A DNA stretch of 64,000 nt from Caryophanales bacterium (GCA_029256085.1 JAQSYP010000002.1:1-64000); one strand, 5' to 3'. Counted from the first letter of the stretch, positions 19,678-46,958 are shown. A program made the numbers and translations. The notes: generated by a model not told the origin, from the sequence alone.

Positions 19678-19836
19678 TTTTCATACCTCTTTTCATAGTT
19701 ATTCATTTTATCTTATGAATTAAGAATAATAATGAAAGGTACATCTCCCTAATACTTGTCCAATAATATAAAAAAGGCTAATTTATATGGATTTTTTAAT
19801 TGTCCCCATATACTAATTGAAGAATTTTCGACAAAA

Positions 19837-19916
19837 CGGTTGATAGAAATGTAAATTCGGTTGATAGAAATGTAAACTTGGTTGATAGAAATGTAAATTC
19901 GGTTGATAGATATAAC
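19837..19916. repeat. Phased intergenic array A, 21-bp period
   Basis: Four tandem units begin GGTTGATAGA at 19838, 19859, 19880 and 19901, exactly 21 bp apart. The first three continue AATGTAAA with one or two base changes. The array lies downstream of the tRNA gene and upstream of the mucin-like gene on the minus strand. An open minus-strand frame through it is chance, because the unit length is a multiple of three. Confidence 0.8.
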
Positions 19917-21593: not shown

Positions 21594-21679
21594 GTTATCA
21601 ACTCCTAATAATATCATACTGTATAACACACACTATTGTGAATAGTACATTATTAATTTTTTTATAAAATATTTAGTTT

Positions 21680-21770
21680 GGATTAAAAAACTCATAAATC
21701 GGATTAAAAAAATGATGTTTTGGATTATAAATTTTAATTTCGGATTAAATAATAGATATTTTGGATTAAA
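21680..21770. repeat. Phased intergenic array B, GGATTA every 20-21 bp
   Basis: GGATTA occurs at 21680, 21701, 21722, 21742 and 21763, each followed by A/T-rich filler (mostly GGATTAAAAA or GGATTAAAT). It lies just after the exopolysaccharide operon terminator and before padR. The filler is not conserved; only the motif and its spacing are. The same motif, inverted, forms array C at the other end of the operon. Confidence 0.85.
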
Positions 21771-21787
21771 TGCTCTGCATAAAGAAA

Positions 21788-21816
21788 AAGCACAGCATAA
21801 TAATTTTGCTGTGCTT
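21788..21816 (-). terminator. Terminator of the exopolysaccharide operon
   Basis: A 9-bp stem (21788-21796 with 21808-21816), on the minus strand followed by TTTTTCTTT, starts three bases after the last gene's stop codon. Confidence 0.8.
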
Positions 21817-21818
21817 GT

Positions 21819-22613
21819 TTATTTTGCTAAATTGATTCCATCTACATATTTGCCTGGAGCATTGTATAATAAAAATTCTTGTTTCCGAGCAAGTTTTTTA
21901 GCTTTTTCATAGGAATTGCGTTCTTTTTCAATTGATTCCTCTAATAATAATAAAATTTGAATATCAAAATCTAACTTAAACTTAAGTAATCTATTAGTTA
22001 TAACTTCTACCCATTCATAACTTTCATTCAAATTCAGAGGTGGATTTTCCCAACATATCCCATCAATATACATTGCAGTGTGAAGACAAACTTCTTCAAG
22101 GCCATTGTTCTGGATGAACAAGTGATTTGGATAAAGTATTTTTAAAGCATAAAGGAAATTAACAACACCTTTTAGTTGCTGTTGGCGCAAATTATAAGGT
22201 AATCCATCATTCTCAATATCCCCTATCGTATCTAAAAAAATGCCGTCAGATTCAAATACTACTAACTGTCTTTTTACCTCGATAAGTAAGTAGTTTAGCC
22301 ATTTCTTAGATTTCAAGCTTACTAGATAAGTTCCATATGCTTCATTTTGGACACGTTCTCCGTCAATTAACCAAAAGTCTTCCTCTGATAATTCTTTAAA
22401 TATTGCTTCATTTGGGCTAACTTCAAAAATACTCAAATACGTAATTACTAAAGTATTTTTTACCTTTAATTTATTTATATCTTCAGTAGTATGTCCTTTA
22501 GAATCTATAATTGCGATATCAAAGAGTGCTAATTCATTACCCCGCCCATGCCCGTAGTAAAGCGCGTAACTTTTAGCTAATTTCATTCTATCTTTTCGAA
22601 AACTTTTTGGCAT
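21819..22613 (-). CDS. GH114/PelA-like glycoside hydrolase domain protein
   Basis: 264 residues resembling the endo-alpha-1,4-polygalactosaminidase/TM1410 group (GH114-type TIM barrel, related to the hydrolase domain of PelA). Visible are SYALYYGHGRGNELALFDIAIID at the start, an SDGIFLDTIGD motif with acidic residues D123, D128 and D132, and YIDGICWENPPL later. There is no signal peptide, unlike secreted PelA, which is odd for an enzyme that should cut exported polymer; it may act on lipid-linked material in the cytoplasm. Last gene of the operon, 13 bases after the HD-GYP-like gene. The first ATG has a weak binding site and a Met at residue 10 is an alternative. Confidence 0.7.
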   Translation of the reverse strand: MPKSFRKDRMKLAKSYALYYGHGRGNELALFDIAIIDSKGHTTEDINKLKVKNTLVITYLSIFEVSPNEAIFKELSEEDFWLIDGERVQNEAYGTYLVSLKSKKWLNYLLIEVKRQLVVFESDGIFLDTIGDIENDGLPYNLRQQQLKGVVNFLYALKILYPNHLFIQNNGLEEVCLHTAMYIDGICWENPPLNLNESYEWVEVITNRLLKFKLDFDIQILLLLEESIEKERNSYEKAKKLARKQEFLLYNAPGKYVDGINLAK

Positions 22614-22626
22614 CCTATCAACCGCC

Positions 22627-24459
22627 TTATATTGCAGATCTATTAGTGTTTTTTAAACGAGCTGCTGCCTCGGTATAAACGAAGCAAGTTTTGCAATTTT
22701 TTCCATGGGCTTCACAATTGTTAGTCGGTTGCTCCCAACAATTTGCTGTACTATTTTGAAATGCGGGACATCCAGAACAAATCGAAGGTGAAACACAGCA
22801 TAAATCCCAGCAATTACCGAGTGCCCTGTTCTCGCCTGCCTTAAGATTACGATGCTTATTAAACCATTCAATAAATAAATATAATACTTGTGTATCAAGT
22901 TGTGAGCCTGCCGCATTTCGTAATATGTTTAATGCCTCATCAAATGGCAAGGCATCACGATACTGTCTCCCATTAATTTTAGCAAGAAAAGTTTGAACAA
23001 CAAAAATGATTTTAGCACCGATTGGGATTTCTTCTCCCTTTAACCTCGAAGGATATCCATTACCGTCAATTCGCTCATGGTGATAACGGATATAGTTTGC
23101 AACTTCATTATGTGCAATCGTATTTTCAATAATTGCTGCCCCAACTTCACTATGAAGCTTCATTTGTTCATATTCTTCTTCTGAATATTTTCCTTCTTTC
23201 ATTACTACGCCATCAGATAGCCCAAGTACTCCGATATTACTGAAATACGCTGCAATTCCGATAGATTTAATTTGTGAATCACTTAACTTTAATTCTTTGG
23301 CTATTACCATTGAGTATCGTGACATTTGTTTCGAATATCCAACAGTGTACGGAGTTGTGTTATCTATCATATCAGCAATTGTTTTTAGTAACTCAATATA
23401 AGCACTCGAAAGTGGCTGATTGCTTTGTTTTAGTTTAAATAACTGCTTTATATTATTTAATAATTCTTTTATAGCTCGTTGACGATTTTTTTCTTCATCT
23501 ACCTCGGTCTTCTCGAAAGAAAATAAAATTGTGTATTGTTTATTTAATATACTAAATTGTGCAATTGCACAATAAGTACCCACGTTGATTCTTAACTTTG
23601 CCTTTAACGTTTTATGGAGTGGGCTAGTATTAGATACAATTAAGAAAGGTTTGTCACCAACAATATCAGTCAGTCTAATATTCAGGCTTTGGGCGATTTG
23701 TTTGCTTACACCAGTTGAATATGATAATTTGTCATCAACAAATATCAAACTTGTTAATGGATTTATGTTTCTAGAACATGTTTGAACAAGTAGTTTAATA
23801 TATTCAGTTTCGTTAACAAACAAATTGTTAATATATTTAACTGCTTTTGCTGAAGTTTTCATAACTTCAAAATCACGCTGTTGTTCTTCTTCATCAATTA
23901 AATTGTTAAGAGGTGACTCTAGTAATTCTCCTAAATAGTTTAGTTGTTTGACAGTCTTTTGCTTTACTTTATTTATTGGGCCAATTCTAATTAGTCCCTT
24001 TCCACCCTTGACCGGAATTACGAGAAGTGGCACTTCACCTTCTTTTACAATAGATGCAGTTTTTGGAACGTCATTTAACGATATGGAAAGCGAAGGGCTA
24101 TAGTTCTCCTTATCATACGGAAGTAATCCACTATATGATGGTGCAATTTGACCATCACTAGTTAACTGCCTAACAGCTTTTAAAGTAAAATGATTATTTG
24201 TTGGATTAAAAATATAAAAACTATAGCTGCGTGCTTCAACTAGTTCATGCGTTTTTATTAAAATTAAATCTAGATTTTTTTCAATACCTAACGTAGGAAT
24301 GAAATTATCAATTACTGTCCTCATTAGAGTTACTTTACGATTAAATGTTTTAGTGCGATTAAATGATAAAATCGTTAGAACAAAAATTATTATAAACAGA
24401 ACTAGAAACGATATGGAAATAATTAAAGTTTGTTCGTTAAATATTAAGATCTCGTTCAT
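22627..24459 (-). CDS. Membrane GAF/HD-GYP-like protein with lost HD dyad and Cys-rich tail
   Basis: 610 residues. One membrane helix (about 9-33) is followed by a region that looks like two GAF-type domains (~50-340), then an HD-GYP domain (~355-545) with HHERIDGNGYP near 456. The catalytic HD is absent: canonical LLHDIGK is replaced by AAYFSNIGVLG near 403. A tail from ~550 has at least ten Cys and may bind metal. Active HD-GYP proteins hydrolyse c-di-GMP; without the metal-binding HD this one probably senses rather than cleaves. In Pel systems the membrane GAF protein PelD is the c-di-GMP receptor, so this may be its functional counterpart. Overlaps the DUF2304-like gene by 23 bases. Confidence 0.75.
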   Translation of the reverse strand: MNEILIFNEQTLIISISFLVLFIIIFVLTILSFNRTKTFNRKVTLMRTVIDNFIPTLGIEKNLDLILIKTHELVEARSYSFYIFNPTNNHFTLKAVRQLTSDGQIAPSYSGLLPYDKENYSPSLSISLNDVPKTASIVKEGEVPLLVIPVKGGKGLIRIGPINKVKQKTVKQLNYLGELLESPLNNLIDEEEQQRDFEVMKTSAKAVKYINNLFVNETEYIKLLVQTCSRNINPLTSLIFVDDKLSYSTGVSKQIAQSLNIRLTDIVGDKPFLIVSNTSPLHKTLKAKLRINVGTYCAIAQFSILNKQYTILFSFEKTEVDEEKNRQRAIKELLNNIKQLFKLKQSNQPLSSAYIELLKTIADMIDNTTPYTVGYSKQMSRYSMVIAKELKLSDSQIKSIGIAAYFSNIGVLGLSDGVVMKEGKYSEEEYEQMKLHSEVGAAIIENTIAHNEVANYIRYHHERIDGNGYPSRLKGEEIPIGAKIIFVVQTFLAKINGRQYRDALPFDEALNILRNAAGSQLDTQVLYLFIEWFNKHRNLKAGENRALGNCWDLCCVSPSICSGCPAFQNSTANCWEQPTNNCEAHGKNCKTCFVYTEAAARLKNTNRSAI

Positions 24460-24820
24460 GTTCTGATTTCACCTCTATTTCTTCTACAAATAAATCGTTT
24501 TCTTTTAACGCTAAGTATTGGGAAATATCCTTAATTTTATTTGTAAGTCTAGTTATTTGTATCGTTTGATAAAGACTAAACAATAGTAATACTAAAGTTG
24601 ATAATAGAAATAGCAATGCCGGTGGATAGTCGATTCCTAGAATTTCAGCAAAATAGTCAACGATATCTGGAATACCTGCTAAAAGCAAAATTATTAGAGT
24701 ACCTGCTAACCATATTACCGAACTTCTTTCGGTTATTTTATTTTTCAAAAGAAGTCTTATAACAAATGCTGAAAAAATCACTGCACAGCCAACAAGAAAT
24801 ATTTGTAGTAAATAACTCAT
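24437..24820 (-). CDS. DUF2304-family membrane protein
   Basis: 127 residues with three hydrophobic helices (about 4-23, 34-52 and 66-88), then an acidic cytoplasmic helix (ITRLTNKIKDISQYLALKENDL). The family is usually encoded next to a dolichol-phosphate-mannose-synthase-like GT2 in cell-surface polysaccharide operons, as here, and probably helps anchor it. The start overlaps the GT2 stop by four bases. Confidence 0.75.
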   Translation of the reverse strand: MSYLLQIFLVGCAVIFSAFVIRLLLKNKITERSSVIWLAGTLIILLLAGIPDIVDYFAEILGIDYPPALLFLLSTLVLLLFSLYQTIQITRLTNKIKDISQYLALKENDLFVEEIEVKSEHERDLNI

Positions 24821-25548
24821 TGTAAGTCACCTCTCTGTGACAGTTTGCTTTTCACTGTAACGATAAAAATACTTAATAATGTTTGAGCTAAATATATAAG
24901 TGGTTTAACACCTGGATTGTGTATCTTACTTTTACCGTGTTGCCTATCAAACATATTCACTGGAATCTCAACAATTTTATAGTTTTGTAACAATATATCA
25001 ATGATAAAGTTACTATCTGGTAAATCATAATTAAAATTGTTAGAATCTATAAATCTTCTATATACTTTTTCCTTATATGCTTTAAAACCCGATGTTGGGT
25101 CTGTAATTTTCTTTTTTGTTATTTGGTAAATAATTGATCTAAATAATTTAACAACCATTAATTTTGATTTACTAATTTTCATACAATTACTTTCAAGAAA
25201 TCTAGAGCCTATAACAACATCATTTTCGTCTTTTTCAATTTCTGCCATAATGTCCTTTATATAAATAGGATCATGTTGTCCATCACCATCAAAATAAATT
25301 ACATAAGAATAATTTTTGCTACCTGCAAATTTAAACCCAGTTTGGACTGCCGCTAAGTACCCTAAGTTCGTAGGATGAGTAATTACTGGTACACCACATT
25401 TTTTAGCAATTGCGAGAGTATCGTCAACAGAACCATCGTTTATTACGATAATATCGATTGGCAGCTTTAAATTTTTTAAAGAGTGGATAACGAATTCAAT
25501 ATTTCTTTCTTCATTATAAGCAGGTATAACTACTAAGAAATCATTCAC
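24817..25548 (-). CDS. GT2 glycosyltransferase, polyprenyl-phosphate type
   Basis: 243 residues with the GT2 elements VVIPAYNEERNIEFVI, VINDGSVDDTLAIA and the DxD in VIYFDGDGQHDP. The context resembles dolichol-phosphate mannose synthase-like enzymes, which load a sugar onto a lipid carrier at the cytoplasmic face; NMFDRQHGKSKI near the C-terminus is typical. Such a lipid-linked sugar would supply the GT-C-like membrane proteins in this operon. Overlaps the start of the DUF2304-like gene and the end of the flippase gene. Confidence 0.85.
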   Translation of the reverse strand: MNDFLVVIPAYNEERNIEFVIHSLKNLKLPIDIIVINDGSVDDTLAIAKKCGVPVITHPTNLGYLAAVQTGFKFAGSKNYSYVIYFDGDGQHDPIYIKDIMAEIEKDENDVVIGSRFLESNCMKISKSKLMVVKLFRSIIYQITKKKITDPTSGFKAYKEKVYRRFIDSNNFNYDLPDSNFIIDILLQNYKIVEIPVNMFDRQHGKSKIHNPGVKPLIYLAQTLLSIFIVTVKSKLSQRGDLQ

Positions 25549-26890
25549 TTACCTTCACTCCTCTCTGCCCGATCTTTAAAAGATCTTTTACAAAATATAT
25601 TAGTAATAATGTACCGCTTAATGTTGCTGACACAGCAATTGCATACCCGATGCCTTTAGGTCCTATACTTGGCACAAATATAGTTAGCAATACAATATTG
25701 ATAATAGAACCAATTAAACCAATAATTAAGGGCGTTCTCATTTTTCCTTCTGCAACATAATATCTCAAACAAAATACATACAAGCTTTGACCGACAATTG
25801 ATAATGAATAGCTTTTAAGTATTAAACTTGTTAGTTTTACAGAATCACTAGTAAATGCACCTCTTGCTAAGAGTAATTGCAAAATCTGCTCTGAAAAAAG
25901 GAATAAGATAAGTGAAATGCTACCTGAAACACCTATAACAAAGGTAAAGGCTTTTTTAAGGTCAGTTTTTAATGCATTAATATTTTTTGTTTCTAAGTGA
26001 AGGCTAATTGTTGGGAGAATAAAAGTGTTAATTGCGGCAATAAATACCCAAATTGGAAATTGTGATAAGCGATATGCATATGTTAATGCTGCAACAGTTC
26101 CAGTTTCTAATGAACTAGCATATAGTCTTTCAACAAATAAGGCACTTTGAGTAAATAATAAAATTAATATATAAGATGCGAATATAATTCCAATTTTTTT
26201 TACGTCTTTATAGTTAGAAGAAGGAGTAAGTTTCCAATCAAATTTAAGCTTTTTGTAAATATATATCCAAGTAATAATAAAAGAACAAAAAGTTGCAATT
26301 GTTATTACTTTAGAAAAAGTTATTCCTCCTGTTGCTTGTGGAATTTTCATAAATTGAAATGTCGCTAAGCCAATTAGTAAAATCCCGTTAAATATTATAG
26401 GAGTTGCAGCTGGTAATATAAACCTTCTAGATGCTTGTAATACTGATGAACCTAGGAGCCACAATGGAGCAATAATAATTATCGGTGCAAGTATAAAAAA
26501 ATAATCCTTTACTATTTGTATTTGATTACTATCTATACTGAAAAGGTTTAAAATTTGATCAGACAAAGCAATGAGAATCCCACACAATAAAATTGTGCTA
26601 AAAAAAACGATTAGGAAAATTTTTTTTATTACATCAAAGTAGACAATGTTTGATTCATTTAAAGTCAATTTAGTTAAAACTGGGATAGCAGCTACTGCTA
26701 CTGCTGCACCTATTAAATTATTACCTATTGTATCTGGTAAGAAAAAAGCTAGATTAATAGAATCGGCAATATTACTAGTTCCAAAATATGCAGCCAGTAT
26801 AATATCCTTTACAAAAGCGGTAACAGCAAGGAGTAAGTTGAAAATAATAAGTATATGCACTGTTTTATAAGAATTCATTATATTTCCCAA
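25541..26890 (-). CDS. MurJ/MviN-type lipid-linked oligosaccharide flippase
   Basis: About 449 residues, 12-14 membrane helices, with the family's N-terminal AFVKDIILAAYFGTSNIADSINLAFFLPD and PVLTKL. It is expected to flip a lipid-linked glycan outward. The start may be TTG at 26890 (AGGATGGGG upstream) or ATG at 26878. Its presence together with another multi-pass membrane protein (32917-34494) gives the operon two possible exporters. Confidence 0.85.
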   Translation of the reverse strand: MGNIMNSYKTVHILIIFNLLLAVTAFVKDIILAAYFGTSNIADSINLAFFLPDTIGNNLIGAAVAVAAIPVLTKLTLNESNIVYFDVIKKIFLIVFFSTILLCGILIALSDQILNLFSIDSNQIQIVKDYFFILAPIIIIAPLWLLGSSVLQASRRFILPAATPIIFNGILLIGLATFQFMKIPQATGGITFSKVITIATFCSFIITWIYIYKKLKFDWKLTPSSNYKDVKKIGIIFASYILILLFTQSALFVERLYASSLETGTVAALTYAYRLSQFPIWVFIAAINTFILPTISLHLETKNINALKTDLKKAFTFVIGVSGSISLILFLFSEQILQLLLARGAFTSDSVKLTSLILKSYSLSIVGQSLYVFCLRYYVAEGKMRTPLIIGLIGSIINIVLLTIFVPSIGPKGIGYAIAVSATLSGTLLLIYFVKDLLKIGQRGVKVSE

Positions 26891-26905
26891 CTTACCCCAT
26901 CCTTT

Positions 26906-27754
26906 CTAGATTTCCTTGTATTCTACTTCTTGTGCTTTTATAACTTCCCCTATTGATGTAAATTTGAATTCATCCAGGAGTTTTTTGAGCTTAACTTCAG
27001 TAGATTTTAGATTATAGTATTGAATAAATCTAACTAAAAAGTTTGTTTTATATTTAGTGATTGCAGTATCAAATTCCCACGGATGTAAATACACCATTCC
27101 TGGCCTTGTTTTATTTACTATACGAAAAAGATACTTTATTAACGCTATTGGAAAAAATCTAAGATAAAATCCACCTGCAAATGGAAATGCTATTTTCTTA
27201 TTTATTCGAAATACAGTTGGTGGGAACTCAATTAATTCAATTTTTTTATTATCTAAAATAGGTTTAAAAGGTTCTAGTGGAATCCCATTTATACCTGATA
27301 ATGGAGTTTTCACTGGTTGAAGACTTGAGTCTATTACAACACCATTTTGCTCTAGGTATCTTAAAAAACTCAGTTTATCTTTAGATATTGACCATGACGG
27401 TGCACGATAATATTTAATTTTCTCACCTGTTAATTCCTCTAACAAATCCATACACTCGTGAAAATCCTCTTTGAATTGCTCAAAGGTTTGTTTAGACACT
27501 AATCTATGATTCATACTGTGACATCCGATTTCATGCCCTCGACTCACAATTTCTTTTATAAGAGAAGGGTACTTCCTTGCGACATCCCCTAAGATGAAAA
27601 ATGTTGCTTTTACACTATAAGTGTCAAATAAGTTTAGGAGTTTTATAGTATTTTCGTAAACGGTTGAAGGCAAACTATCCCATTTATCTTTAGGTATATT
27701 TAATCCGCTCGTATGATACCAATCTTCTACGTCTACGGTTAAGGCATTCAACAT
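26906..27754 (-). CDS. Polysaccharide deacetylase of the DUF3473 (exosortase-locus) type
   Basis: 282 residues. NodB motifs are visible: TVDVEDW (D8, E10, D11), metal-binding H79 and H83 in GHEIGCHSMNHR, YRAPSWS, and MVYLHPWEFD near the end, the last typical of the DUF3473 subgroup found in XrtA/PEP-CTERM polysaccharide loci. No signal peptide, so it should act in the cytoplasm on a lipid-linked or nucleotide sugar substrate. No exosortase is present in this window. PelA carries a deacetylase domain, so a partly deacetylated amino-sugar polymer is a fair guess. Confidence 0.85.
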   Translation of the reverse strand: MLNALTVDVEDWYHTSGLNIPKDKWDSLPSTVYENTIKLLNLFDTYSVKATFFILGDVARKYPSLIKEIVSRGHEIGCHSMNHRLVSKQTFEQFKEDFHECMDLLEELTGEKIKYYRAPSWSISKDKLSFLRYLEQNGVVIDSSLQPVKTPLSGINGIPLEPFKPILDNKKIELIEFPPTVFRINKKIAFPFAGGFYLRFFPIALIKYLFRIVNKTRPGMVYLHPWEFDTAITKYKTNFLVRFIQYYNLKSTEVKLKKLLDEFKFTSIGEVIKAQEVEYKEI

Positions 27755-27766
27755 AGTGCATTTCTC

Positions 27767-28924
27767 CTAACGCCAGAAAAACATTTTTAATGAATCTAAA
27801 CTAAACATAAACTTAATACAAGCTAGTAAAAACACAATGCCTGGTAGAGGATCATTTATACTAAACGTATCGTCGTATACACCGTGTTTTTCACCTGCTA
27901 AAAATGATGGTTTCATTTTAAACCTTTGACGATTTAGCAGAAAATGCATTAAATCTCCCGGAATTGACCATCTACACTTAATTCCAACTTTATATTCAGT
28001 CACTGTTTCAACATTTTCTCCGATACTTAACTTATAGTATAAGTAAGGAAAATCAACCCCTGCTCTTACTGCTAAATCTAATGAATTCCAAAATCTTGGG
28101 TTAATTTCCATTAGCTTAGGTTCATTAGTTCTAGGGTCAACCATATATTCAACCTCTACGATTCCAGTCCAATTTAAAGGCTGTAATAACTTTCTGCTTT
28201 TCTCAATAAGCTCGTCGTATTTTACACTTTCTTGAACCGTACTAGGTCCCATTTCAATTGGAAAATGTCTTATTTCTTTTTGTACAAACGATGCTTTAAT
28301 TTCGTGATTATTACCGTAAATTAAGCAAACATCGTACCTGTCTCCCGTTGGTACAAATTCCTGAATAAGTGGAATATTATAATCTTTTTTCACATCATTA
28401 AAAACAGTGACCAATTGTTCTTTATTGTCTACTTTTCTAATTCCTCTTGAACCGCTGCTTTTTCGTGGCTTTATTATTGCTGGATAAGTAATTATATCTG
28501 CAATATGTAGTAAATCTTGGTTGTCTTTAGGACAGTAAGATTTAGGACAGTCAATATCTTGTTGAATTGCCAGTTTAATAGTTTCAAATTTGTCACAAGC
28601 AATGTTATAAGCCTCTTTCGACGGTAAAATACACTTGTAGTTTTTTATAAGATCTTCATTTTCAATTAAAAGTTTTAAAATTGTATCATCCATAGGTATT
28701 AGAACTGTATTATTATCAAGATTTTCATTTGACCATTTCAAAAATTGATCAGGATAACGTTGGGGATCTGGATACTTTAGTCGCTTGTTACAGTACTTTG
28801 AGAAACCACTAGGAGATAAAATTGATTTCTCACCGACAATAGTGTTTATTCCTTTTTCCCCTAAACTTCTAGTCGCTGAAAGTGATTTTCTAAGTAATCC
28901 ATCAGTAACAAACACACTTAGCAT
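27767..28924 (-). CDS. ATP-grasp enzyme (carboxylate-amine ligase type)
   Basis: 385 residues. The N-terminal part is a nucleotide-fold domain (MLSVFVTDGLLRKSLSATRSLGEKG). The centre is an ATP-grasp domain with YPAIIKPRKSSGSRGIRKV (ATP-binding Lys and glycine loop), PLIQEFVPTG and KLMEINPRFWNSLDLA (metal-binding Glu/Asn). Relatives in exopolysaccharide loci join an amino acid or similar group to a sugar or carrier; the substrate here cannot be read from the sequence. Start ATG has AGGAGGGG. Confidence 0.8.
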   Translation of the reverse strand: MLSVFVTDGLLRKSLSATRSLGEKGINTIVGEKSILSPSGFSKYCNKRLKYPDPQRYPDQFLKWSNENLDNNTVLIPMDDTILKLLIENEDLIKNYKCILPSKEAYNIACDKFETIKLAIQQDIDCPKSYCPKDNQDLLHIADIITYPAIIKPRKSSGSRGIRKVDNKEQLVTVFNDVKKDYNIPLIQEFVPTGDRYDVCLIYGNNHEIKASFVQKEIRHFPIEMGPSTVQESVKYDELIEKSRKLLQPLNWTGIVEVEYMVDPRTNEPKLMEINPRFWNSLDLAVRAGVDFPYLYYKLSIGENVETVTEYKVGIKCRWSIPGDLMHFLLNRQRFKMKPSFLAGEKHGVYDDTFSINDPLPGIVFLLACIKFMFSLDSLKMFFWR

Positions 28925-28935
28925 CTTTTCCCCTC

Positions 28936-30900
28936 CTATTCTACTAATGATGTAAAGTTAAATGGATTTAAAGGATTTTGATTAACTCTATAAACTCGCA
29001 ACTTCGGTGTATCAACGTATATTTCAAAAATATTAGGATTTTTTTCTTCTATATTATTGATAAAGCTCCATGTTTTCTGTTGAAGAATAGTTCTATATTC
29101 AGGCTTTCTATAAAAGTCTAATGTGTCTTCTACTCGTGGTAATTCTAGACTTTTTGAAGCTGTATTTTGCACGTTATTAGATGTTCCAAGTGGTATTTTT
29201 TCAACATAAAAGAAGATTCCTTTAGTTGGAAATTTCATTTCTTTTCCGGTTGAAATATTTGATAGCATATCTGTTAAATTATAGTGCCACCCGTAATCGA
29301 TAACTAAAGGATACTCCTCAACAGTAGAAATAATAGTCCATTCTGCTACAGGAAATTCTTTTTTTATTTTTATATATGCCTCTACAGCCTCGTCATATTG
29401 TTGTTGATTTCCTTTAGGAAGTTCAAAACTTGGTAAAGTTACATAACTTATTGTCACAAAAGAAAGTATCGTTAGCGTTTTATATACTTTTGATTGAAAG
29501 ATTGTAGTTATTAAAGCTATAGAAATAGTTGTTATTAAAACTAATACTACTTCAATTCGGTAAGGTAACATTATTGCTGGTATACCTAAAACGTCTGCCT
29601 TATAAAAAGAAAATAGTACAATTGCAATCATTGGATAGGCAAACAGTGTGTTTAATCTTTTGATATAGATTAATAAAAAAATTAAAACTATTAGGAAAGC
29701 GATAATGTGATAATTGCCCCCAAATAATGATGTACCAGAAAATGAAGAATTCTCACCCTTAGTTCCTAAACTTTCTTTCACGAATTTAATAGATTCACCG
29801 TGGAACTTGTTTCCACCTAATAAACCTATAACTAATGGTAATATTCCAATTAGGCTTGCAATCGCAAACATGCTAATCATTTTTAAAATATGGCTTATTT
29901 TAAATTTCTTAGCCGCGAATACAAACAATACTAAGTAGCTAATGAACAAACAAATAGCTGCATATGGATGAATTAAGATTGTTAATAAAAAGCACTCAAT
30001 ACTTATAATTAATGCTTTCTTCCCTTCATCTCTTATATATTCAAGAAAGTAACATATGCCTGGCAATATAAATATTGCCCCGTATTCCATTGATAGAGAT
30101 GAAAATTGTCTCCAAATAAATGAAAATTGATATGAACTTATAAAATAAATAACTAATGCAAAAATTGCTACAGAGTAATCAGTTGGTCGGTGCTTCCTAA
30201 GCACAAAATATATAGAGAATGCTATAAGAACACCTGAAAGTGGTCCGAGAAATCTTAAAGTGATATAAGGGTCTAATTGAAATGTAACGTGAAGTGCGGA
30301 AATTATCGCTTCAAATCCAAATGGGTACACCCCATCAACATAAATTTCATTTTGGCTAAGTAGCTTTGCCCATTTCAGATGAACGTATGGATCAGATGCC
30401 CCGAAATAATAGTGGGTTATAGAATGTTTAAACCTAATTATTGCCGCTAAAATCATCAAGACTACTACAATTATTATTGATAATCCGTTTGCTTTTATTG
30501 TATTTCCCATTTGTAATTTAGTTTGCTTTAGGCTAACCATGAAATCAGCAAACCTTTTATTGTGAAGGTTTCTAAGACCTTTATTTTCATCCGTTGCTTG
30601 AATAAGTGAGAATAATAAATTTTTAATTGGTGATGAAGGTAGTGTACTTCTACCTTTTATAAAAAGAAATGTGCACGTTGAGGCAATTACAAATAGTAAT
30701 GAAAGAGTTTCATATAGTTTCATAGCAACTAGCAAATGTACGACAATAATGATGAATACATGTGAATGTATAAATGAAATAAAGTATTTGTCTTTCCAAT
30801 TTTTAATTTTTTTTCCGTCTAAAACAGAAGTTGGAATGAAGTAAAAGAGTAAAAAATACAGTAATAAAAATTTCGATAACATTACCACGCTAGTTAACAT
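28936..30900 (-). CDS. GT-C-like multi-pass membrane protein, second of a tandem pair
   Basis: 654 residues, about 13 membrane helices and a ~170-residue C-terminal extracytoplasmic domain. An early loop reads FGASDPYVHLKWAKLL then GVYPFGFEAIISAL, matching the upstream neighbour (MADSYVTLAWMKYI, GIYPQGFHIYLATL). An acidic residue in the first long outer loop is typical of GT-C transferases that use polyprenyl-phosphate sugars. I assign a GT-C-like role at low confidence; it could be a polymerase or a sugar-modifying enzyme. Sixteen bases after its paralog. Confidence 0.6.
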   Translation of the reverse strand: MLTSVVMLSKFLLLYFLLFYFIPTSVLDGKKIKNWKDKYFISFIHSHVFIIIVVHLLVAMKLYETLSLLFVIASTCTFLFIKGRSTLPSSPIKNLLFSLIQATDENKGLRNLHNKRFADFMVSLKQTKLQMGNTIKANGLSIIIVVVLMILAAIIRFKHSITHYYFGASDPYVHLKWAKLLSQNEIYVDGVYPFGFEAIISALHVTFQLDPYITLRFLGPLSGVLIAFSIYFVLRKHRPTDYSVAIFALVIYFISSYQFSFIWRQFSSLSMEYGAIFILPGICYFLEYIRDEGKKALIISIECFLLTILIHPYAAICLFISYLVLFVFAAKKFKISHILKMISMFAIASLIGILPLVIGLLGGNKFHGESIKFVKESLGTKGENSSFSGTSLFGGNYHIIAFLIVLIFLLIYIKRLNTLFAYPMIAIVLFSFYKADVLGIPAIMLPYRIEVVLVLITTISIALITTIFQSKVYKTLTILSFVTISYVTLPSFELPKGNQQQYDEAVEAYIKIKKEFPVAEWTIISTVEEYPLVIDYGWHYNLTDMLSNISTGKEMKFPTKGIFFYVEKIPLGTSNNVQNTASKSLELPRVEDTLDFYRKPEYRTILQQKTWSFINNIEEKNPNIFEIYVDTPKLRVYRVNQNPLNPFNFTSLVE

Positions 30901-30915
30901 TTACACTCTCCCCTT

Positions 30916-32901
30916 CTAATCATTCCAGATTTTCTTTGACATTTCTTCCTTGGCTTTTGGCACCTCTAATTTATAAACTGTAATATTTTTATTATCATAA
31001 AAAACTTCAATCTCATTTCCATATTGCTTATGAATGTTTATCCACTCTATTAACTTTTGATTTTCTTCTTCGCGTTGGTTATATTCCGGCTCTAATAATT
31101 GATAAATACTATTTGACTTAGAAACTTTAAAAATATTTTTCTCTGAAAATATAAAAATATACGGTGGTAAATTATTATCTATTTTTTCATTGTCAATTCT
31201 CGTTAAAGTAGGGCTACTTGCATTATAAGTTTTTAAAAAGTCTCCTAAATGCATATGATATCCGGTACCTAGTGAAACTGAATAACCTTCATCTTGTGAA
31301 ACAGCTATCCACGTCTTTGGACGATAATTCTCAGTAATACGTAAATATTGCTCAATATTTTCACTATATTCAAGTTTGTATGGAATAATAGGTTGTGGCT
31401 TGTAAATTACCAATATACTACTGAAACTAACAAGAAGAATTGTGTAAGTGATACTATTAAATTTCGTGCTTTTTACTCTTAAAATTATTGAAATGGAGAT
31501 ACCGACACAAAATGGTATTACTATTGCCCATAGTTCAATTGATCTTGAGGTGATAAGCGTGCTCTTGGTTAAGACACCACCAAAGTAGTAAAGTGCAAAT
31601 AGTAATCCTCCTGTAATAACTGAGAATAAACCAATTGTTTTTAACTCTTTCGTAGTTTTCTTCATTAAAATAGTAAACAGAAGCAAAAATAATAAACTCA
31701 ATGTAGCGTAATCAATATAATTTAATTCGGGAAGCGTAATCTCATATTTGTTTGTTTGAACTAAATACTCGGCTGAAGACTCATGAAATTCCCTATTTAG
31801 TACAAACCCAAACCCTAGAGGAATAGCTGAAAAAATTACACATGCAATTGCACCACTACAAACGTAAGTTACTTGATTCCATCTGTTTTTCAATACAATT
31901 AATGAACTAAAACATAAAATACCAATTAATAAACCAACAAGGACGAATACTAACGAATGGACTAACCCAACAATAGCTGTGCTTATTAATCCAATTAGTA
32001 AGTTGTTTTTTTCTTTATTTAAAAAATATTTGTATAAGAAGTAAATTGCAGGAAAAATGAACACGAACGCAAATTCTTGAGAGTTAGTTGCTGCTTGTCT
32101 TTCGATTGAATAAAATGGGTAAATTGATGGTAAAATCCCTGCAACGAAAACTGCAAATAAAGCACCTATCCCATTATTAGTAAGTTTTCTAACAACCGCA
32201 TAATAGCCTACTATTAGTAAAATTGAATTAAGTGGTCCTGTGTATCTTAAAATGAAAAGTGGATCAATAGCTGCAAATTTGAATAATGTAGCTAAATATA
32301 TGTGAAAGCCTTGCGGATAAATACCATCATGGAAAAGCTCTCGAGCATCTATATATTTCATCCATGCAAGTGTTACATAGCTATCTGCCATTGGTGGTGC
32401 AGCATTTACAAATGCATCATAAGATCTAATGTAAATTGAAGTTATCACGATTATAAATAAAGTGATCAGCTCTAATAGTAAAACCCAATTAAACTTCTTG
32501 TTTATATATAATCTAATTTCCAATTCTTTTTGATAAAAATACGCTTTAATTACATTTGTATTGGTACGAAAAATTCCATCAAAAATATCAAAGATACGTT
32601 TAAGAAATGTTATTTTGATTGATGAGTTATTCTTTTTTTTCTCATCTTGAATGTATCGAAATGAAAAAACACCTAGAAATATTAACAATAAAGCTAGAAC
32701 TTCAAAGAGTTTAGTAATAACCATAATGTAGCCAACGCTAATAAGTACAAATGTCATTTTTACATAACGAGATATTATTGTTTCGAACAAACTTTCTTTT
32801 TTTGTTTTAAATAGCCAACTAGGAAGTATTAAAAACAAAAATGTTAAAGCAAAAGTATAGTGTATTACTGGTAAGAAATGAACGTTTAACGATGCATACA
32901 T
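30916..32901 (-). CDS. GT-C-like multi-pass membrane protein, first of a tandem pair
   Basis: About 661 residues from ATG 32901, chosen over GTG 32913 because AAAGGGTG then sits nine bases upstream. Roughly 13 membrane helices; first outer loop with PPMADSYVTLAW and GIYPQGF, shared with the following gene; C-terminal soluble part ~500-660. The pair arose by duplication and has diverged strongly, so the two probably handle different donors or acceptors. Likely role: sugar transfer from a lipid carrier outside the membrane, or polymerisation. Confidence 0.6.
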   Translation of the reverse strand: MYASLNVHFLPVIHYTFALTFLFLILPSWLFKTKKESLFETIISRYVKMTFVLISVGYIMVITKLFEVLALLLIFLGVFSFRYIQDEKKKNNSSIKITFLKRIFDIFDGIFRTNTNVIKAYFYQKELEIRLYINKKFNWVLLLELITLFIIVITSIYIRSYDAFVNAAPPMADSYVTLAWMKYIDARELFHDGIYPQGFHIYLATLFKFAAIDPLFILRYTGPLNSILLIVGYYAVVRKLTNNGIGALFAVFVAGILPSIYPFYSIERQAATNSQEFAFVFIFPAIYFLYKYFLNKEKNNLLIGLISTAIVGLVHSLVFVLVGLLIGILCFSSLIVLKNRWNQVTYVCSGAIACVIFSAIPLGFGFVLNREFHESSAEYLVQTNKYEITLPELNYIDYATLSLLFLLLFTILMKKTTKELKTIGLFSVITGGLLFALYYFGGVLTKSTLITSRSIELWAIVIPFCVGISISIILRVKSTKFNSITYTILLVSFSSILVIYKPQPIIPYKLEYSENIEQYLRITENYRPKTWIAVSQDEGYSVSLGTGYHMHLGDFLKTYNASSPTLTRIDNEKIDNNLPPYIFIFSEKNIFKVSKSNSIYQLLEPEYNQREEENQKLIEWINIHKQYGNEIEVFYDNKNITVYKLEVPKAKEEMSKKIWND

Positions 32902-32916
32902 TATAAAGATCACCCT

Positions 32917-34494
32917 TTATGAAGCAGCGTATAAATAGTAATCAAGATTATTAAAAACTTTTACAATCGCTTTAGTCGTTAATACAAAAAATACTATGCT
33001 ACCTACAAACAATCCAAATACAGCAAATTCATACTCAAACCATCTACTTAATACAAAACCAATTATCATATTTGTTAATAGTGCAGGTAAAATTGATCTA
33101 ACAACCATTTTAGGCTGAGAGAGCGCAAATAAAATAACAGAGTTCATCAAACAAAACGAAAGGATTGCGTATGAAAGGATTCCCCAAAGTAAGACAAAAA
33201 TTGTAATTTCACTTGAAAGGATGTTTTCACCGTTTATTTTCATTGAAATTTCGTTATACCAAATTAAGAATTTATAGATTGTATATGAACTTATACAAGT
33301 ACTAATAAAAATAAAGAAAAACATGCGCTTATAAGTTCTCATGAACTGCTTGTATAATTTTTCGCTATCTACAGCTAAATAGCTTTTTTGACTAGATTCT
33401 ATATCTAGCATTAATTTTGATACTATAACTTCACTAACACCCATTGGTATAATTAAAGTTAGAAGTGCAAAATCTAGACCAAGCTCATATTGACCTCTAA
33501 ACCAAATAATATAAGGCATAAATTCTTCGTTTTTTGACCAAGCATTAACTCGGTCTATAAACAAAAAGCTAAAATATAAAAATCCGTAAAAGAAGTATGG
33601 CCATACGGAATATAATGTTATTGAAAACCTTGGAAGCTTAAGAGCAATACTCCTTTCACGCTTATTCTCAGCTGATATAAAAAAATAAAGAACTAATAAA
33701 ATACTACAAATCGAGACAACTAATAGTGATATTAATTGCGACAAAATAATATCAACGTTCAACACCTTAAACATGACATAAACTAGAAATATCCCAAATA
33801 TTATAAGTCCCGTAAATGTAATTTCTTTTTTCAAGATATACATTACTGTTACCGAAAGCCAGATTGACGTTAAGAAGAAGAAATATAAAACAATTAGTAG
33901 TATCATATTTAGGGAAAACATATTAAAGATTAAATTAAATAGAATAATAAAGACGGAAATTACTAGACAAGCACCGAATCCTATTAGAATAAATAGAATA
34001 GTAGTTTTTCTTGCTAAATAATAATAGCCTTGTATTATATAAAAAAATCCTCTTCTTGCAATTGCTTGAGTAAAGCCACCGACGACGATAAAACTTAATA
34101 TTGTACCAATAGCAATACTAGTTGCTTGTTCTAATGATAAATATTGATAAGACCATAATGAGAATTTCAGATTTAGCATAGCTGCAACTGAAACTGCCAT
34201 AGGAAACGCAAATATTAATCCCCGTAAAAAGCTTCGAATCATTTCAATTAATAATGATAGTCCTCGTAATTTTTCTACTTTTGCAATTGGATTGTAGCTT
34301 ATTTTTGTTTGAATAGCGTCCCATAATTTTTCTGACAAATCAAAAATATCATCAACACCGAACTCTTTTGCTGCGCGCACATCATTCCATCCCATGGATT
34401 CAAGAAGTGCTGCAATTTCGTATTGGTCTTGTGGCTGAAGCTGACGTTCAAGTATTTCATTTAATAGTAGAGTGAACTTATCTGTATTGGACAT
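32917..34494 (-). CDS. Multi-pass membrane protein next to PelF, possible PelG-type exporter
   Basis: 525 residues. The first ~85 are soluble and helical (LERQLQPQDQYEIAALLESMGWNDVRAAKEFGVDD), then about 12 membrane helices. In Gram-positive Pel operons PelG, a MOP-superfamily exporter, follows PelF; position and topology fit, but I do not see a PelG signature clearly and the N-terminal extension is unusual. It ends 15 bases before the GT-C-like gene and starts one base after the stop of the coiled-coil gene. Confidence 0.55.
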   Translation of the reverse strand: MSNTDKFTLLLNEILERQLQPQDQYEIAALLESMGWNDVRAAKEFGVDDIFDLSEKLWDAIQTKISYNPIAKVEKLRGLSLLIEMIRSFLRGLIFAFPMAVSVAAMLNLKFSLWSYQYLSLEQATSIAIGTILSFIVVGGFTQAIARRGFFYIIQGYYYLARKTTILFILIGFGACLVISVFIILFNLIFNMFSLNMILLIVLYFFFLTSIWLSVTVMYILKKEITFTGLIIFGIFLVYVMFKVLNVDIILSQLISLLVVSICSILLVLYFFISAENKRERSIALKLPRFSITLYSVWPYFFYGFLYFSFLFIDRVNAWSKNEEFMPYIIWFRGQYELGLDFALLTLIIPMGVSEVIVSKLMLDIESSQKSYLAVDSEKLYKQFMRTYKRMFFFIFISTCISSYTIYKFLIWYNEISMKINGENILSSEITIFVLLWGILSYAILSFCLMNSVILFALSQPKMVVRSILPALLTNMIIGFVLSRWFEYEFAVFGLFVGSIVFFVLTTKAIVKVFNNLDYYLYAAS

Positions 34495-34495
34495 A

Positions 34496-35419
34496 TTACC
34501 CTACCCCTGGTCGTGTAAACTTCATATTAACAATTAAATCCGCTAACTTTCCCGCTTGGTTAGCCTTTTCAACTACTTCTTTAGTAATTAAACTAAATTT
34601 TTCTACTATTAAATTACCTTGTTGATCATATAAGTTTTCTCCAGCAAGTTTGCCAACGATATACATCGATTTTATAGAATCAATTTGTTCAACTAATACA
34701 CTATCTATATTTACAGTGTAAACACTATTATTTTGATTTGTTGCTAGTTTAGTATCTTTACTAACATTTACCCCATCATCATTTTGTAAAAACTCCACTT
34801 CAAAATTCGGTATAAGTTCCTCTGTGTTAATTTCAGTAGAAGCAGCAGTATCTAAAGTCCAATCTTCAATGTCTCCCCAAAAATCATCCGCATTTTCGTC
34901 TCCATTGTTAGAAATACCTTCATTGATTATTATTTCACTTGATTCTTCGGAAGTGAGCTGTTCTTGTTCTTCATAAGTATCCGACTGAATATGATCCTCA
35001 TTTGTAAGATCCATCAGCGCCCGATTTACTATATCGCTTACTTTGGATTGCAAATCAGATAATATTTTTTCATTCTTTATTATTTTATCTTCAATTTCAT
35101 TAAGTTTTTGCGTTGTATGTTCCATTCTCTCGTTGAAATCGTTTTGAAGTGAAGTTAATTCCAACTTTTTCTGCATACTTAATGATTCTATTACGTGAGA
35201 GATTCTATCTTTTCCTAGTTCCCTATATTCTTGTTCAGATAATATTTTTTGTTGTTTCTCTACAATTTCTTTTAGTTTATAAATTAGATTATCATTCTCT
35301 TTAGTAATTATCTCGAGTTCTCTTTCGAGTTCATTTTTTTCAAAATCAAATTCTTGTTCCAATTTCTTGAATAATTTGTTGATTGTTTCTTTTTTTAAGC
35401 CGAAAAATTGTTCTCTCAT
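34496..35419 (-). CDS. Coiled-coil protein with a PRC-barrel-like C-terminal segment
   Basis: 307 residues. About 1-135 is an uninterrupted charged coiled coil (FEKNELERELEIITKENDNLIYKLKEIV). About 140-235 is acidic, low complexity and probably disordered. The last ~65 (SIKSMYIVGKLAGENLYDQQGNLIVEKFSLITKEVVEKANQAGKLADLIV) reads like a PRC-barrel fold. No membrane segment. Overlaps the preceding stop in an ATGA. Perhaps a scaffold that positions the synthase; no known Pel component looks like this. Confidence 0.65.
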   Translation of the reverse strand: MREQFFGLKKETINKLFKKLEQEFDFEKNELERELEIITKENDNLIYKLKEIVEKQQKILSEQEYRELGKDRISHVIESLSMQKKLELTSLQNDFNERMEHTTQKLNEIEDKIIKNEKILSDLQSKVSDIVNRALMDLTNEDHIQSDTYEEQEQLTSEESSEIIINEGISNNGDENADDFWGDIEDWTLDTAASTEINTEELIPNFEVEFLQNDDGVNVSKDTKLATNQNNSVYTVNIDSVLVEQIDSIKSMYIVGKLAGENLYDQQGNLIVEKFSLITKEVVEKANQAGKLADLIVNMKFTRPGVG

Positions 35420-35847
35420 TGTTCCAACCCCTTTATCTCATGGAATTGTTGGGTTGATATATTTTTTAAATACTTCAATGCCTCGTTTAAACGTTCGGTT
35501 GATAATTCTAATAGTCTTTCCTTTTCTTCAAGCTGCATTTGTTTTAGTTCTTCTATTTTTTTCAGCTCTTTTTTACGTTCTAGAATTTCAGTTGTGTGAG
35601 ACTTAAAGACATCCATTAACATTTTGTTTAATTCATTTTCAATTGGATTAACAAGTGGAAGTTGATTCTTTTCTTTTATCTCATTTTTCAATCGCTTATT
35701 TATAGATTTCTCATCTTGAAGCCGACTTTTTAGAACTTCCAATTCCTTTTGATGATTTTTATTCCGGTTTTGAATATGTTTGTGTACGTCTTCAGGGTTA
35801 TAACCATAAAGCGCTTTTTTCTTATACATAGCCCTATTTAAATCCAA
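35416..35847 (-). CDS. Small DivIVA-like coiled-coil protein
   Basis: About 143 residues from TTG 35847, chosen because GGAGGTG lies six bases upstream. Residues ~8-27 (YKKKALYGYNPEDVHKHIQ) recall the N-terminal membrane-targeting and spacing motif of DivIVA/GpsB proteins, and the rest is coiled coil. It overlaps the end of pelF by 14 bases. With the following coiled-coil gene it may form a localisation scaffold. Homology to DivIVA is suggestive, not certain. Confidence 0.55.
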   Translation of the reverse strand: MDLNRAMYKKKALYGYNPEDVHKHIQNRNKNHQKELEVLKSRLQDEKSINKRLKNEIKEKNQLPLVNPIENELNKMLMDVFKSHTTEILERKKELKKIEELKQMQLEEKERLLELSTERLNEALKYLKNISTQQFHEIKGLEQ

Positions 35848-37615
35848 CTTCCTCACCTCCAATTTCAAAATGATTTAGTCCCTGTAGTTGTAGTAAAGTT
35901 TGTAATTTTTCTATTTCTAGAAATGCTTTAGGCGAATCACCTAAATAATGATAAGCCTTTATAATTTCTGAAAGATACACGACTACTGCTGGTGCCTTAG
36001 GATCGACATTTATTGCAAGTCTAAACTGTCCAATCGCTTCTTGATATTTTTTAATTGCCATTAAAGAAAATGCTCGTTCACTATATAACAGCTGAATTTC
36101 TTGTTTTTCTTGACTAATAGCGACAATTTCTGTTTGTGGAGAAATCGATTCAGCATGTGTTGCAAGTTTAATATAGCTTTTCAAGTGTTGTTCAACTACT
36201 TTGTTTAACGTAAAGTAATTGAGTGCACGCTCTCTACCATCATTTCCCATCGAACGTCTCAAACTTGAGTCTTCAAGTAATTTTAAAATTGCTGTAGCAA
36301 ATTCTTCAGGATTTCTTGGTGTTACTAAAAAACCTGTATTTCCTAATGCTTCTCTAATACCACCTACATCAGTTGCTACGACTGGTTTTCCTGTCATCAT
36401 TGCTTCAACGACTGAATAAGGGAACGCTTCAGATATACTTGATAGTGCTACAATATCTCCTGAATGGTACGCTGCTACCATATTAGTTGTATGACCCGCA
36501 AATATAAATGTATCTTCTAATTCGAGTTTTTTTTGTAATTTAACGCATTCTTCGTAATAGTCTTGAACTGAAACCGAACCATATACTATGAATTTTACAT
36601 TTGGAATTTGTTTTTTTACTATTGAGGCAGTTTTTATTAAAGAAATAATATCTTTTACCGGGTCTATTCTTGCTACAGATACAACTGTTGGATTAATTCT
36701 TTCAATATGACCAGCTTCAATAAAAACATTTGAGTCTACACCGTTATAAATAACTTCAATATTTTCCTGTTTTACGCCAAATTTTGTTTCCCATCTAGTA
36801 TTGTAGTGACAAACAGGTGAAACTTGGTCAGCAAAGTGAAAGTTTAACGAGTTTATAGCATGAATAAATCTAATCAAAAAAGTATTTAAGAAAACTGATA
36901 GCTTTCTCTTGGAAAGAGATAAGTATTGTTCCCTTAAGTAAACACCATGCTCTGTTAGTAAGAAGGGTGTTTTATGCTCCTTTTTAGCAATTACACAAGG
37001 AATACCACAAAAAGCTGAGGCTGAAGCATGACTTACGTTAGCTTTTGGAACTGTTGTATTAATGATATTTAGAAATCTATAGACCCATCCTAAACTTTGA
37101 ATTAAACAATAAATGTCTGGTTGGGCAAGTTTCATTTCTGGTATTTTAATAGCTTCTAAGACTAACTCTTTGTAAGCTTTCCAGGCGATTTCAGATTTAA
37201 ATGTTTCTTTATATTCATATTCTTGAAAATATTTATACAGTTGGAAAATAATTTCGCCTAAGTGTTCAGAGTCTTTTCGCGGACTAATTATTTCATAAAT
37301 TAACTCTTTAAACAGAGGTAAAAACAATGTTTCGATAACTTTCTTAGTTGTGCGTTTCTTTTGTAGATATACTATGGAGAATGGAGTGGAATGATGTTCA
37401 CTTGGTTCTTCGGTGCCCCAAAGTGGAACTTTGTGTAGTTTTGTAGTTTTTGGAAGATCAAATTTTTGTGTAATAAATGGGTCAGTTATAACACTATATA
37501 AGATATAATCAATTGAATCTAGCTCCCTAACTAAGATGTCACACCAAGTACTAACTCCACCTTGGTGAAACGGATAAGTTCCTTCAGTTGTAAGCAGTAC
37601 TTTTAATTTTGACAT
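35834..37615 (-). CDS. pelF: PelF-like GT4 glycosyltransferase with C-terminal TPRs
   Basis: About 593 residues from ATG 37615, chosen because GGGTGAG precedes it. The N-terminus KVLLTTEGTYPFHQGGVSTWCDILV is the PelF hallmark (EGTYP, GGVS), followed by a PelF-type helical insert, TEHGVYLREQYL, and the GT4 C-terminal site (SVARIDPVKD; SEAFPYSVVEAMMTGKPVVATDVGG near 400). Residues ~500-585 are two or three TPR-like helix pairs not found in Pseudomonas PelF. PelF is the cytosolic UDP-sugar transferase that makes Pel. First gene of a thirteen-gene operon. Confidence 0.85.
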   Translation of the reverse strand: MSKLKVLLTTEGTYPFHQGGVSTWCDILVRELDSIDYILYSVITDPFITQKFDLPKTTKLHKVPLWGTEEPSEHHSTPFSIVYLQKKRTTKKVIETLFLPLFKELIYEIISPRKDSEHLGEIIFQLYKYFQEYEYKETFKSEIAWKAYKELVLEAIKIPEMKLAQPDIYCLIQSLGWVYRFLNIINTTVPKANVSHASASAFCGIPCVIAKKEHKTPFLLTEHGVYLREQYLSLSKRKLSVFLNTFLIRFIHAINSLNFHFADQVSPVCHYNTRWETKFGVKQENIEVIYNGVDSNVFIEAGHIERINPTVVSVARIDPVKDIISLIKTASIVKKQIPNVKFIVYGSVSVQDYYEECVKLQKKLELEDTFIFAGHTTNMVAAYHSGDIVALSSISEAFPYSVVEAMMTGKPVVATDVGGIREALGNTGFLVTPRNPEEFATAILKLLEDSSLRRSMGNDGRERALNYFTLNKVVEQHLKSYIKLATHAESISPQTEIVAISQEKQEIQLLYSERAFSLMAIKKYQEAIGQFRLAINVDPKAPAVVVYLSEIIKAYHYLGDSPKAFLEIEKLQTLLQLQGLNHFEIGGEEVGFK

Positions 37616-37847
37616 TTTACTCACCCATTTTACTTTTTACATTTACATCATAATACTAATTTACTATTTAGAATTATTACATTGTATGTTATAATATAAA
37701 ATTTTAGTAAAAATGTTATTCTTTTCTAGTACTAATTACTCACAAGTATATTAACTAAAGCTATTACATCGGTGTTTTTCGACATGTAAATATTTTTATT
37801 AATTTTTTTCAAAAAGTTATTCTGGAGTGAAGTAAAAAATATCTTTT

Positions 37848-37955
37848 TAATCCAAAATTCAATTTATTTAATCCGAAAATTTATTTTTTAATCCATTAAA
37901 AATTTTTATGATCCGAAATCCGACTTTTTAATCCAAAAATCCAGTTTTTTAATCC
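37848..37955. repeat. Phased intergenic array C, TAATCC every 20-21 bp
   Basis: TAATCC (reverse complement of GGATTA) occurs at 37848, 37869, 37889, 37929 and 37950, with a TGATCC variant at 37909; steps are 21, 20, 20, 20 and 21 bp. Filler is A/T-rich and unconserved. Same motif and period as array B, opposite orientation. Confidence 0.85.
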
Positions 37956-37972
37956 AAACTCCAAATTAAAAA

Positions 37973-37998
37973 CGACTCTTCATTTTTCTGAAGAATCG
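37973..37998 (-). terminator. Terminator after adhB
   Basis: Arms 37973-37982 and 37989-37998 pair with one mismatch; on the minus strand TTTTT follows. Confidence 0.75.
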
Positions 37999-38006
37999 CT
38001 TCATTA

Positions 38007-46591: not shown

Positions 46592-46841
46592 AGTTACCCT
46601 CCCTTATTTATAATAATTCTAATTTTAACATAAACTTTTCTTATAAAGTGTGATATTTTTAAAAACATTATAAAATTGACTTTACTTTGCTATAGTTTAC
46701 CATCGAAAAGCTTATGATGGTGAGGAAAAATCACACTCAAAACGTGTTTTTTAAAGGACTTTTTTAGTGAAAATTAGGTAAAATACGGCTAATTTATATA
46801 AAATTTTTGTGGAAAAAATTTTCATCATCCTCTTTTGGCGA

Positions 46842-46930: not shown

Positions 46931-46958
46931 TGCCTTTTGTCGAATTATGAAGGAGGAT

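Follow-up and report, generated by a model that had tools for sequence, protein, structure and literature searches.

Two-turn-phased direct-repeat arrays beside intrinsic terminators form a genome-wide family in a Caryophanales bacterium

Two short arrays of a direct repeat containing GGATTA, designated arrays B and C, lie at the two ends of a polysaccharide operon in a 64,000-nucleotide stretch of DNA from a Caryophanales bacterium (GCA_029256085.1, JAQSYP010000002.1:1-64000), which is referred to here as the window. The computed properties of such arrays are genome-wide occurrence, placement beside terminators, a strict phase, a nearly fixed number of units, gain and loss as whole arrays, and the presence of several core families per genome. 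The reading favored here, at somewhat less than even confidence, is that arrays B and C are members of a genome-wide, terminator-proximal family of direct repeats phased at two helical turns, on which a putative cooperatively binding protein marks the boundary of a transcription unit. The arrays are probably protein landing strips that separate neighboring genes.

Array B occupies positions 21677..21770 on the plus strand and contains five units with the core TTYGGATTAAAAAA. The GGATTA motifs start at 21680, 21701, 21722, 21742, and 21763, which corresponds to steps of 21, 21, 20, and 21 bp. Array C occupies positions 37846..37958 on the minus strand and contains six units, one of which reads GGATCA, at steps of 21, 20, 20, 20, and 21 bp. 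The unit numbers and steps given in the initial annotation of the window are confirmed by the sequence, as is the opposed orientation by which the two arrays face each other. The same annotation held that the filler drifts while the motif and its phase are kept, and this agrees with an information content of 0.9-2.6 bits per column in GGATTAAAAA and of approximately 0.1 bit per column in the filler. The window contains 8 matches to the pattern GGATTA-N13-16-GGATTA versus 0.04 in shuffled sequences; the match at 56184-56211 falls inside a coding frame and was discarded as a chance match. For the intergenic DNA of the window, 7-mers repeated within 60 bp peak only at spacings of 20-21 and 40-42 bp.

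The same pattern was used to search the genome of the window (G000; 2.63 Mb in 17 contigs), where it matches 89 times, compared with 2 matches for the reversed pattern. A similar picture was obtained when one skipped unit was allowed, with about 1-2 matches for the reversed control. Approximately 27 arrays were counted in 26 stretches around the pattern matches, and 27/27 are intergenic, so the repeats do belong to a genome-wide family, which the initial annotation had offered as its fallback. With degenerate units included at a score threshold of 6 bits, exactly six units are present in 17 of the 27 arrays. The 128 steps between units are 21 bp (79 steps), 20 bp (47 steps), or 19 bp (2 steps). 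The conserved stretch spans positions of about -4 to +10 around GGATTA, and the fillers differ at nearly every locus. The pattern GGATTAAA-N11-14-GGATTAAA matches 73 times in this genome and at most 2 times per genome in 60 relatives (all from other genera, one of them from the same family), and arrays with precisely this core are therefore rare outside the lineage of the window.

Since each unit combines a core that is conserved over about one helical turn (TTYGGATTAAAAAA) with a free filler, all cores are co-oriented and share one face of the DNA. Conservation of core and phase with a free spacer is what characterizes a phased multi-site DNA-protein complex. Other explanations for this anatomy were considered. 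Coding repeats were rejected because stops occur in all three frames (22, 100, and 14, respectively, for 30 arrays from a second genus, designated g60), leaving no open frame through the arrays, and because steps of 20 and 21 bp are mixed in the family of the window. Intrinsic curvature is not general enough to be the common function, as A-runs of at least 5 are found in 118 of 155 units here versus 11 of 136 units in g60. A CRISPR-like array, with repeats of 23-50 bp and spacers of similar length, does not fit a unit of 20-21 bp throughout and a filler of about 7-9 bp. RNA folding of the arrays was no better than that of shuffled sequences for either strand (z of -0.8 to +2.4), and a search of 110 kb with Rfam at the gathering score gave no match to an array, only T-box and tRNA matches elsewhere.

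The placement of the arrays was analyzed relative to genes of 80 amino acids or more and gaps of 200 bp or more. The array contexts in G000 are 11 (++), 10 (+-), 4 (--), and 0 (-+); for gaps of this DNA without an array, the numbers in the same order are 20, 13, 13, and 12. Convergent gaps thus hold 10 of the 25 classified arrays and divergent gaps hold none. An intrinsic-terminator-like hairpin is found within 110 bp on either side of 24 of the 27 arrays, compared with 12.6% per strand for random intergenic points. Within this distance, a terminator lies on the sense side of 18/27 arrays and on the other side of 11/27, and the first unit is often just 6-14 bp from the terminator. The placement is strongly non-random, and is not that of arrays scattered over intergenic sites without orientation bias. 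Proximity to terminators is also observed for 19/27 arrays in g60, 3/3 in G305, 4/5 in G063, and 3/3 in G092, with a control value of 15%. The genes beside the arrays are diverse and largely of housekeeping type (e.g., ftsZ, speD, nrdR, shikimate kinase, and rsgA), and a link to one gene function was rejected on this basis. A replication-polar signal similar to the FtsK-orienting polar sequences (KOPS) was rejected as well; the arrays of contig C4 point one way with one exception, yet their signs alternate in contig C14.

Each array in the window has a terminator of its own. The terminator of the last gene of the operon (21819-22613, minus strand) was located at 21780..21818 on the minus strand by the terminator scan (12 pairs, 5 G-C). 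The T-run of this terminator stops about 11 bp from array B, and array B is consequently antisense to it. The terminator of the dehydrogenase gene at 38007-39026 (minus strand) was found at 37964..38002 on the minus strand (13 pairs, 4 G-C), and array C lies 14 bp past it, in sense with this terminator. Array C thus goes with the terminator of the neighboring dehydrogenase gene and array B with the terminator of the last gene of the operon.

The operon between the two arrays (21819..37624, minus strand) is context and was judged to be outside of the element. The initial annotation described it as a 13-gene exopolysaccharide operon, and both the gene number and a polysaccharide-like gene content were verified. 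The genes include those for a PelF-type glycosyltransferase, a polysaccharide deacetylase, a MurJ/MATE-like flippase, a glycosyltransferase, an HD-domain protein, and a GH114/GH66-like protein; several of the 13 genes have no match to an NCBIfam model. The proposal that the arrays form an insulator or looping pair specific to this operon draws on their position at both ends of it, facing each other. G000 contains 5 cases of arrays neighboring each other within 17 kb, where random placement predicts 4.2 (P = 0.41); three further pairs of neighboring arrays likewise face each other. A block of the same 13 genes is found in G010, with 40-85% identity for the individual genes, and in G002, where the conservation is less close. 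The flanking genes do not accompany it there, and no array phased at 20-21 bp was found around it in the 35-36 kb covered in these two genomes, both operon ends included. The bracketing of the operon is incidental, given that pairing is at the chance level and that the operon is free of arrays in G010 and G002; both ends are bracketed because the ends of an operon are where terminators are. With a terminator to explain each array, an operon-specific pair is hardly credible. Of the functional proposals in the initial annotation, the helical phasing for protein binding is supported by the 128 steps of 19-21 bp and by selection in another genus, an insulator-like placement is plausible, and the looping pair is not supported.

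Selection was measured in genus g60, where orthologous arrays were aligned unit by unit to obtain 65 unit pairs, which are not fully independent of one another. The ten invariant positions of the core changed in 20 of 650 comparisons (3.1%), and the nine filler positions changed in 108 of 585 (18.5%; Fisher p = 8e-20). A purine position within the unit is free to change (17/65). All length changes between orthologous arrays (10/10) are of whole 21-bp units, whereas the 110-bp flanks contain 32 indels of 1-22 bp per 2244 aligned bases. The low rate of change in the core relative to the filler, together with length changes of whole units only, demonstrates purifying selection on the core and the two-turn phase in g60 arrays. 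These values are also inconsistent with a variable-number tandem repeat, in which core and filler would change alike and the length would be free.

At the locus of a CAP-domain-like gene (L171:3208-4341), a terminator and an array are present in two g60 species. The closest of the species without an array (86% protein identity) retains both the gene and the terminator, and the array is likewise absent from the more distant species with a readable 3' region. The array is gained or lost whole beside an already existing terminator.

These results bear on the idea that the arrays are neutral minisatellites, a functionless build-up in untranscribed DNA past terminators. Identical tandem units are present in some arrays (L114 and L125), so slippage does happen, and the gaps past terminators, which tolerate insertions, contain other repeats too. 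A neutral build-up is nevertheless distinctly unlikely in view of the six-fold fewer changes in the core than in the filler, the restriction of length changes to whole units, the peak of the unit number at six, and a phase that is kept though the filler is randomized.

The same architecture with other cores was found in a search of 399 Bacilli genomes for four GGNNTA units at exact steps of 21 bp, with the reversed pattern as the control. The cores are AAGTTGGGNRTA in five g60 species, ACGTGGAATAAA in G059, GAACGGGAGTAA in G092, CAACGGGGATTA in G105 and G265, and TTCGGTCTAA in G310. These genomes come from several other families of Bacilli, and the reversed controls in them are mostly 0. Many other matches are ordinary coding repeats or repeats of identical units, and it is the list of cores, rather than the tally of matches, that counts. 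The core ATCAGGATTA is used in arrays of Bacillus sp. FJAT-27251, arrays of the TGATAAA type are found in G138, G120, G305, and G296, and those of the GGTGCAA type in G265. In viral contigs, 100 of 117 triples of TGATAAA or GGTGCAA fall within coding frames.

A tandem-repeat scan of G000 itself identified at least 4 further families phased at 20-21 bp, with the cores GTGGATGATAAA/GTTAGTGATAAA, GCGGTGCAAAAA, CGGTTGATAGAAA, and CGTACRKAAAA. Most arrays of these families are preceded by a leader, TTCGACAA, located right after the terminator; 9 of the 20 occurrences of TTCGACAA in 347 kb act as array leaders. Two such arrays are found in the window. The first, at 46818..46945 on the minus strand, has the core GTGGATGATAAA and the leader TTCGACAA, with about 5 units at steps of 20-21 bp, and is downstream of, and in sense with, the terminator of the gene at 47034-48878. 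The second, at 19827..19913 on the plus strand, has the core CGGTTGATAGAAATG and the leader TTCGACAA, with 4 units at steps of 21 bp, and adjoins a terminator-like hairpin after the tRNA gene at 19970-20041 (minus strand). Further arrays of these families were located at L113, L115, L123, L131, L133, and L134.

An origin from mobile elements would account for the several core families per genome and for the presence or absence of arrays between related species. In plasmid iterons, a direct repeat of 17-22 bp occurs 4-7 times in helical phase and keeps its core, and the arrays share this anatomy (steps of 19-21 bp and a core of 0.9-2.6 bits). The arrays would then be iteron-like or transposon-end-like sites, recognized by plasmid or phage initiators or Tn7-type transposases and kept as decoys, immunity sites, or remnants. 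This explanation is strengthened by the viral contig L266, which carries TGATAAA units spaced at 21 bp next to the gene for a Rep3_N initiator. Against it, no sequence resembling array B or the region of a g60 array turned up in 72,556 plasmids searched with the low-complexity filter on, a scan of genes next to the 27 arrays revealed neither an initiator nor a transposase, the ends of the arrays with the GGATTA core (F1) share no terminal sequence, and the filler is different at nearly every locus. A mobile origin is unlikely on balance.

Arrays at many 3' ends, in convergent or tandem gaps and never in divergent ones, have the address of the repetitive extragenic palindromic (REP) sequences and bacterial interspersed mosaic elements (BIMEs) of enterobacteria and pseudomonads, which are likewise multicopy and lineage-specific. 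The arrays could by analogy be sites for a topoisomerase (gyrase) or a nucleoid protein that absorbs positive supercoils past transcription units. Gyrase wraps a length of DNA near 120 bp, and an array of six units is about 120 bp long. Such a role is quite unlikely, since gyrase is conserved yet the cores are completely different between genera, A-tract curvature is not a common feature, and the arrays contain no palindrome or stem-loop. BIMEs alternate palindromic REPs, whereas the arrays are direct, asymmetric, non-palindromic, and unstructured, with a two-turn phase and a degenerate filler.

The arrays were also compared with other known systems. They resemble the iterons of theta plasmids and phages with Rep_3/RepA initiators in having a conserved core, a helical phase, and 4-7 units of about 21 bp arranged head-to-tail, but about 27 chromosomal copies occur here beside terminators with no adjacent initiator gene, and plasmid units are usually near-identical. 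The g60 core AAGTTGGG fits the consensus of LytTR direct repeats (9 bp at a step of about 21 bp); the other cores do not. A related idea comes from the eps promoter of Bacillus subtilis, upstream of which RemA, a ring-shaped protein believed to wrap DNA, binds to regions of poorly conserved AT-rich direct repeats with at least six periodic protections (PMC8481266). These regions differ in having a period of about 10 bp (7 bp + 3 bp) and in serving as an activation site upstream of a promoter (PMC8481266), whereas the arrays have a period of 20-21 bp, lie past terminators, and also occur in convergent gaps without a promoter. The TAACTGA direct repeats of the Beggiatoaceae are interspersed in intergenic DNA genome-wide, are built on one core, and are patchy across taxa, with a function that is not known (PMC4679880). 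They share these features with the arrays but are heptamers that mostly end just upstream of start codons (PMC4679880), unlike the two-turn-phased arrays with free filler past terminators. The arrays are best placed among the interspersed repeat elements of 3' ends, as a variant outside of the REP/BIME, iteron, and RemA families. No description of such arrays was found in the open-access literature, subscription journals being outside of the search, and the class is apparently undescribed.

Additional features were noted in the course of the analysis. A near-identical 3' region of about 110 bp with its terminator (CTGTGGACTA...ACCACAG) faces the array at L111, L126, and L130, after three unrelated genes, and a GC-rich palindromic repeat (CTTTCCGCGGGCACGGCCTCAACTAATTTTTG...) lies between terminator and array at L110, L118, and L119. 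The arrays of g60 occur as neighboring pairs of the subtypes GGCRTA and GGARTA, approximately 130-195 bp apart (L167, L168, L175, L181, L182, and L184). In Bacillus sp. FJAT-27251 (G063), seven of the ATCAGGWWTA arrays are found in a 170-kb stretch located 80-250 kb to one side of dnaA (contig C1, arrays at 853k-1021k and dnaA at 1104k). Arrays near dnaA on that side are also present in G340 (C1, 388k-792k, dnaA at 929k) and G358 (C10, 139k-388k, dnaA at 8k), and the arrays of G059 (C1) all share a single replichore and a single strand. At 12300-13000 of L107 (viral contig IMGVR_UViG_3300021255_000002), a long array of GCAGGATTAAAAT, with units of about 21 bp and a filler that drifts, is located directly after a terminator downstream of a 294-amino acid open reading frame (ORF). 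The window also contains a coding minisatellite at 18777-19378, where a 21-bp unit is repeated 28 times within the ORF at 17401-19677.

In the proposed mechanism, a sequence-specific DNA-binding protein, one for each core family, would bind to each core and load cooperatively, head-to-tail, on the 4-8 sites of an array. With all cores on the same face at a spacing of two turns, neighboring bound proteins would be in contact, and they may form a short filament or a wrapped patch. Such a filament could mark the boundary of the transcription unit by blocking or absorbing RNA polymerase that reads through the intrinsic terminator; alternatively, it might absorb the supercoils driven ahead of RNA polymerase. 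A comparable roadblock stands just downstream of eukaryotic rRNA genes, where TTF-I binds to a series of Sal boxes with a common orientation. The proposed working principle, an oriented array past the end of a gene, is the same, but the kingdom, polymerase, and protein are different, and the comparison is one of mechanism only.

The arrays could act instead at the level of RNA. A C-rich antisense transcript would offer Rho an unstructured loading site, with one YC cluster for each of its six subunits, and would thereby bring antisense or read-through transcription to a stop. Every core is G-rich on one strand and gives CC/UCC clusters every 20-21 nt on the opposite one, the RNA is poorly structured, and the unit number peaks at six. 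Loading of Rho is very unlikely, as single-stranded RNA does not explain the strict phase of 20/21 nt (with no 22 or 18) and the orientation that makes the antisense RNA C-rich is a bias of 18 versus 11.

Several points tell against a boundary element with a cooperative binder. The orientation of the arrays relative to the terminator is a bias only (18/27 vs 11/27), and G059 and G310 show a weak enrichment of terminators (2/6 and 2/5, respectively; control of 15%). A site past a terminator is one that tolerates any neutral insertion. The spread of the arrays is patchy, with most g60 species and G001 having none. The g60 arrays were fetched with the exact 21-bp pattern, which biases them toward an intact phase, and the selection was measured in another genus than that of the GGATTA family of the window.

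Ordinary repeat finders easily miss degenerate phased arrays because just about half of each unit is conserved. It may tentatively be suggested, with less confidence than for arrays B and C themselves, that many Bacilli possess an undescribed boundary system, in which fast-diverging binders with their own cores, several core families per genome, would act on fixed-size arrays past terminators to separate transcription units or to police plasmids and transposons. Apart from terminators, little is known of bacterial insulators and of elements that bound transcription units. A compact array of fixed size, with a clear core, a clear phase, and selection that has been measured, is directly testable in a culturable Bacillus-like species.

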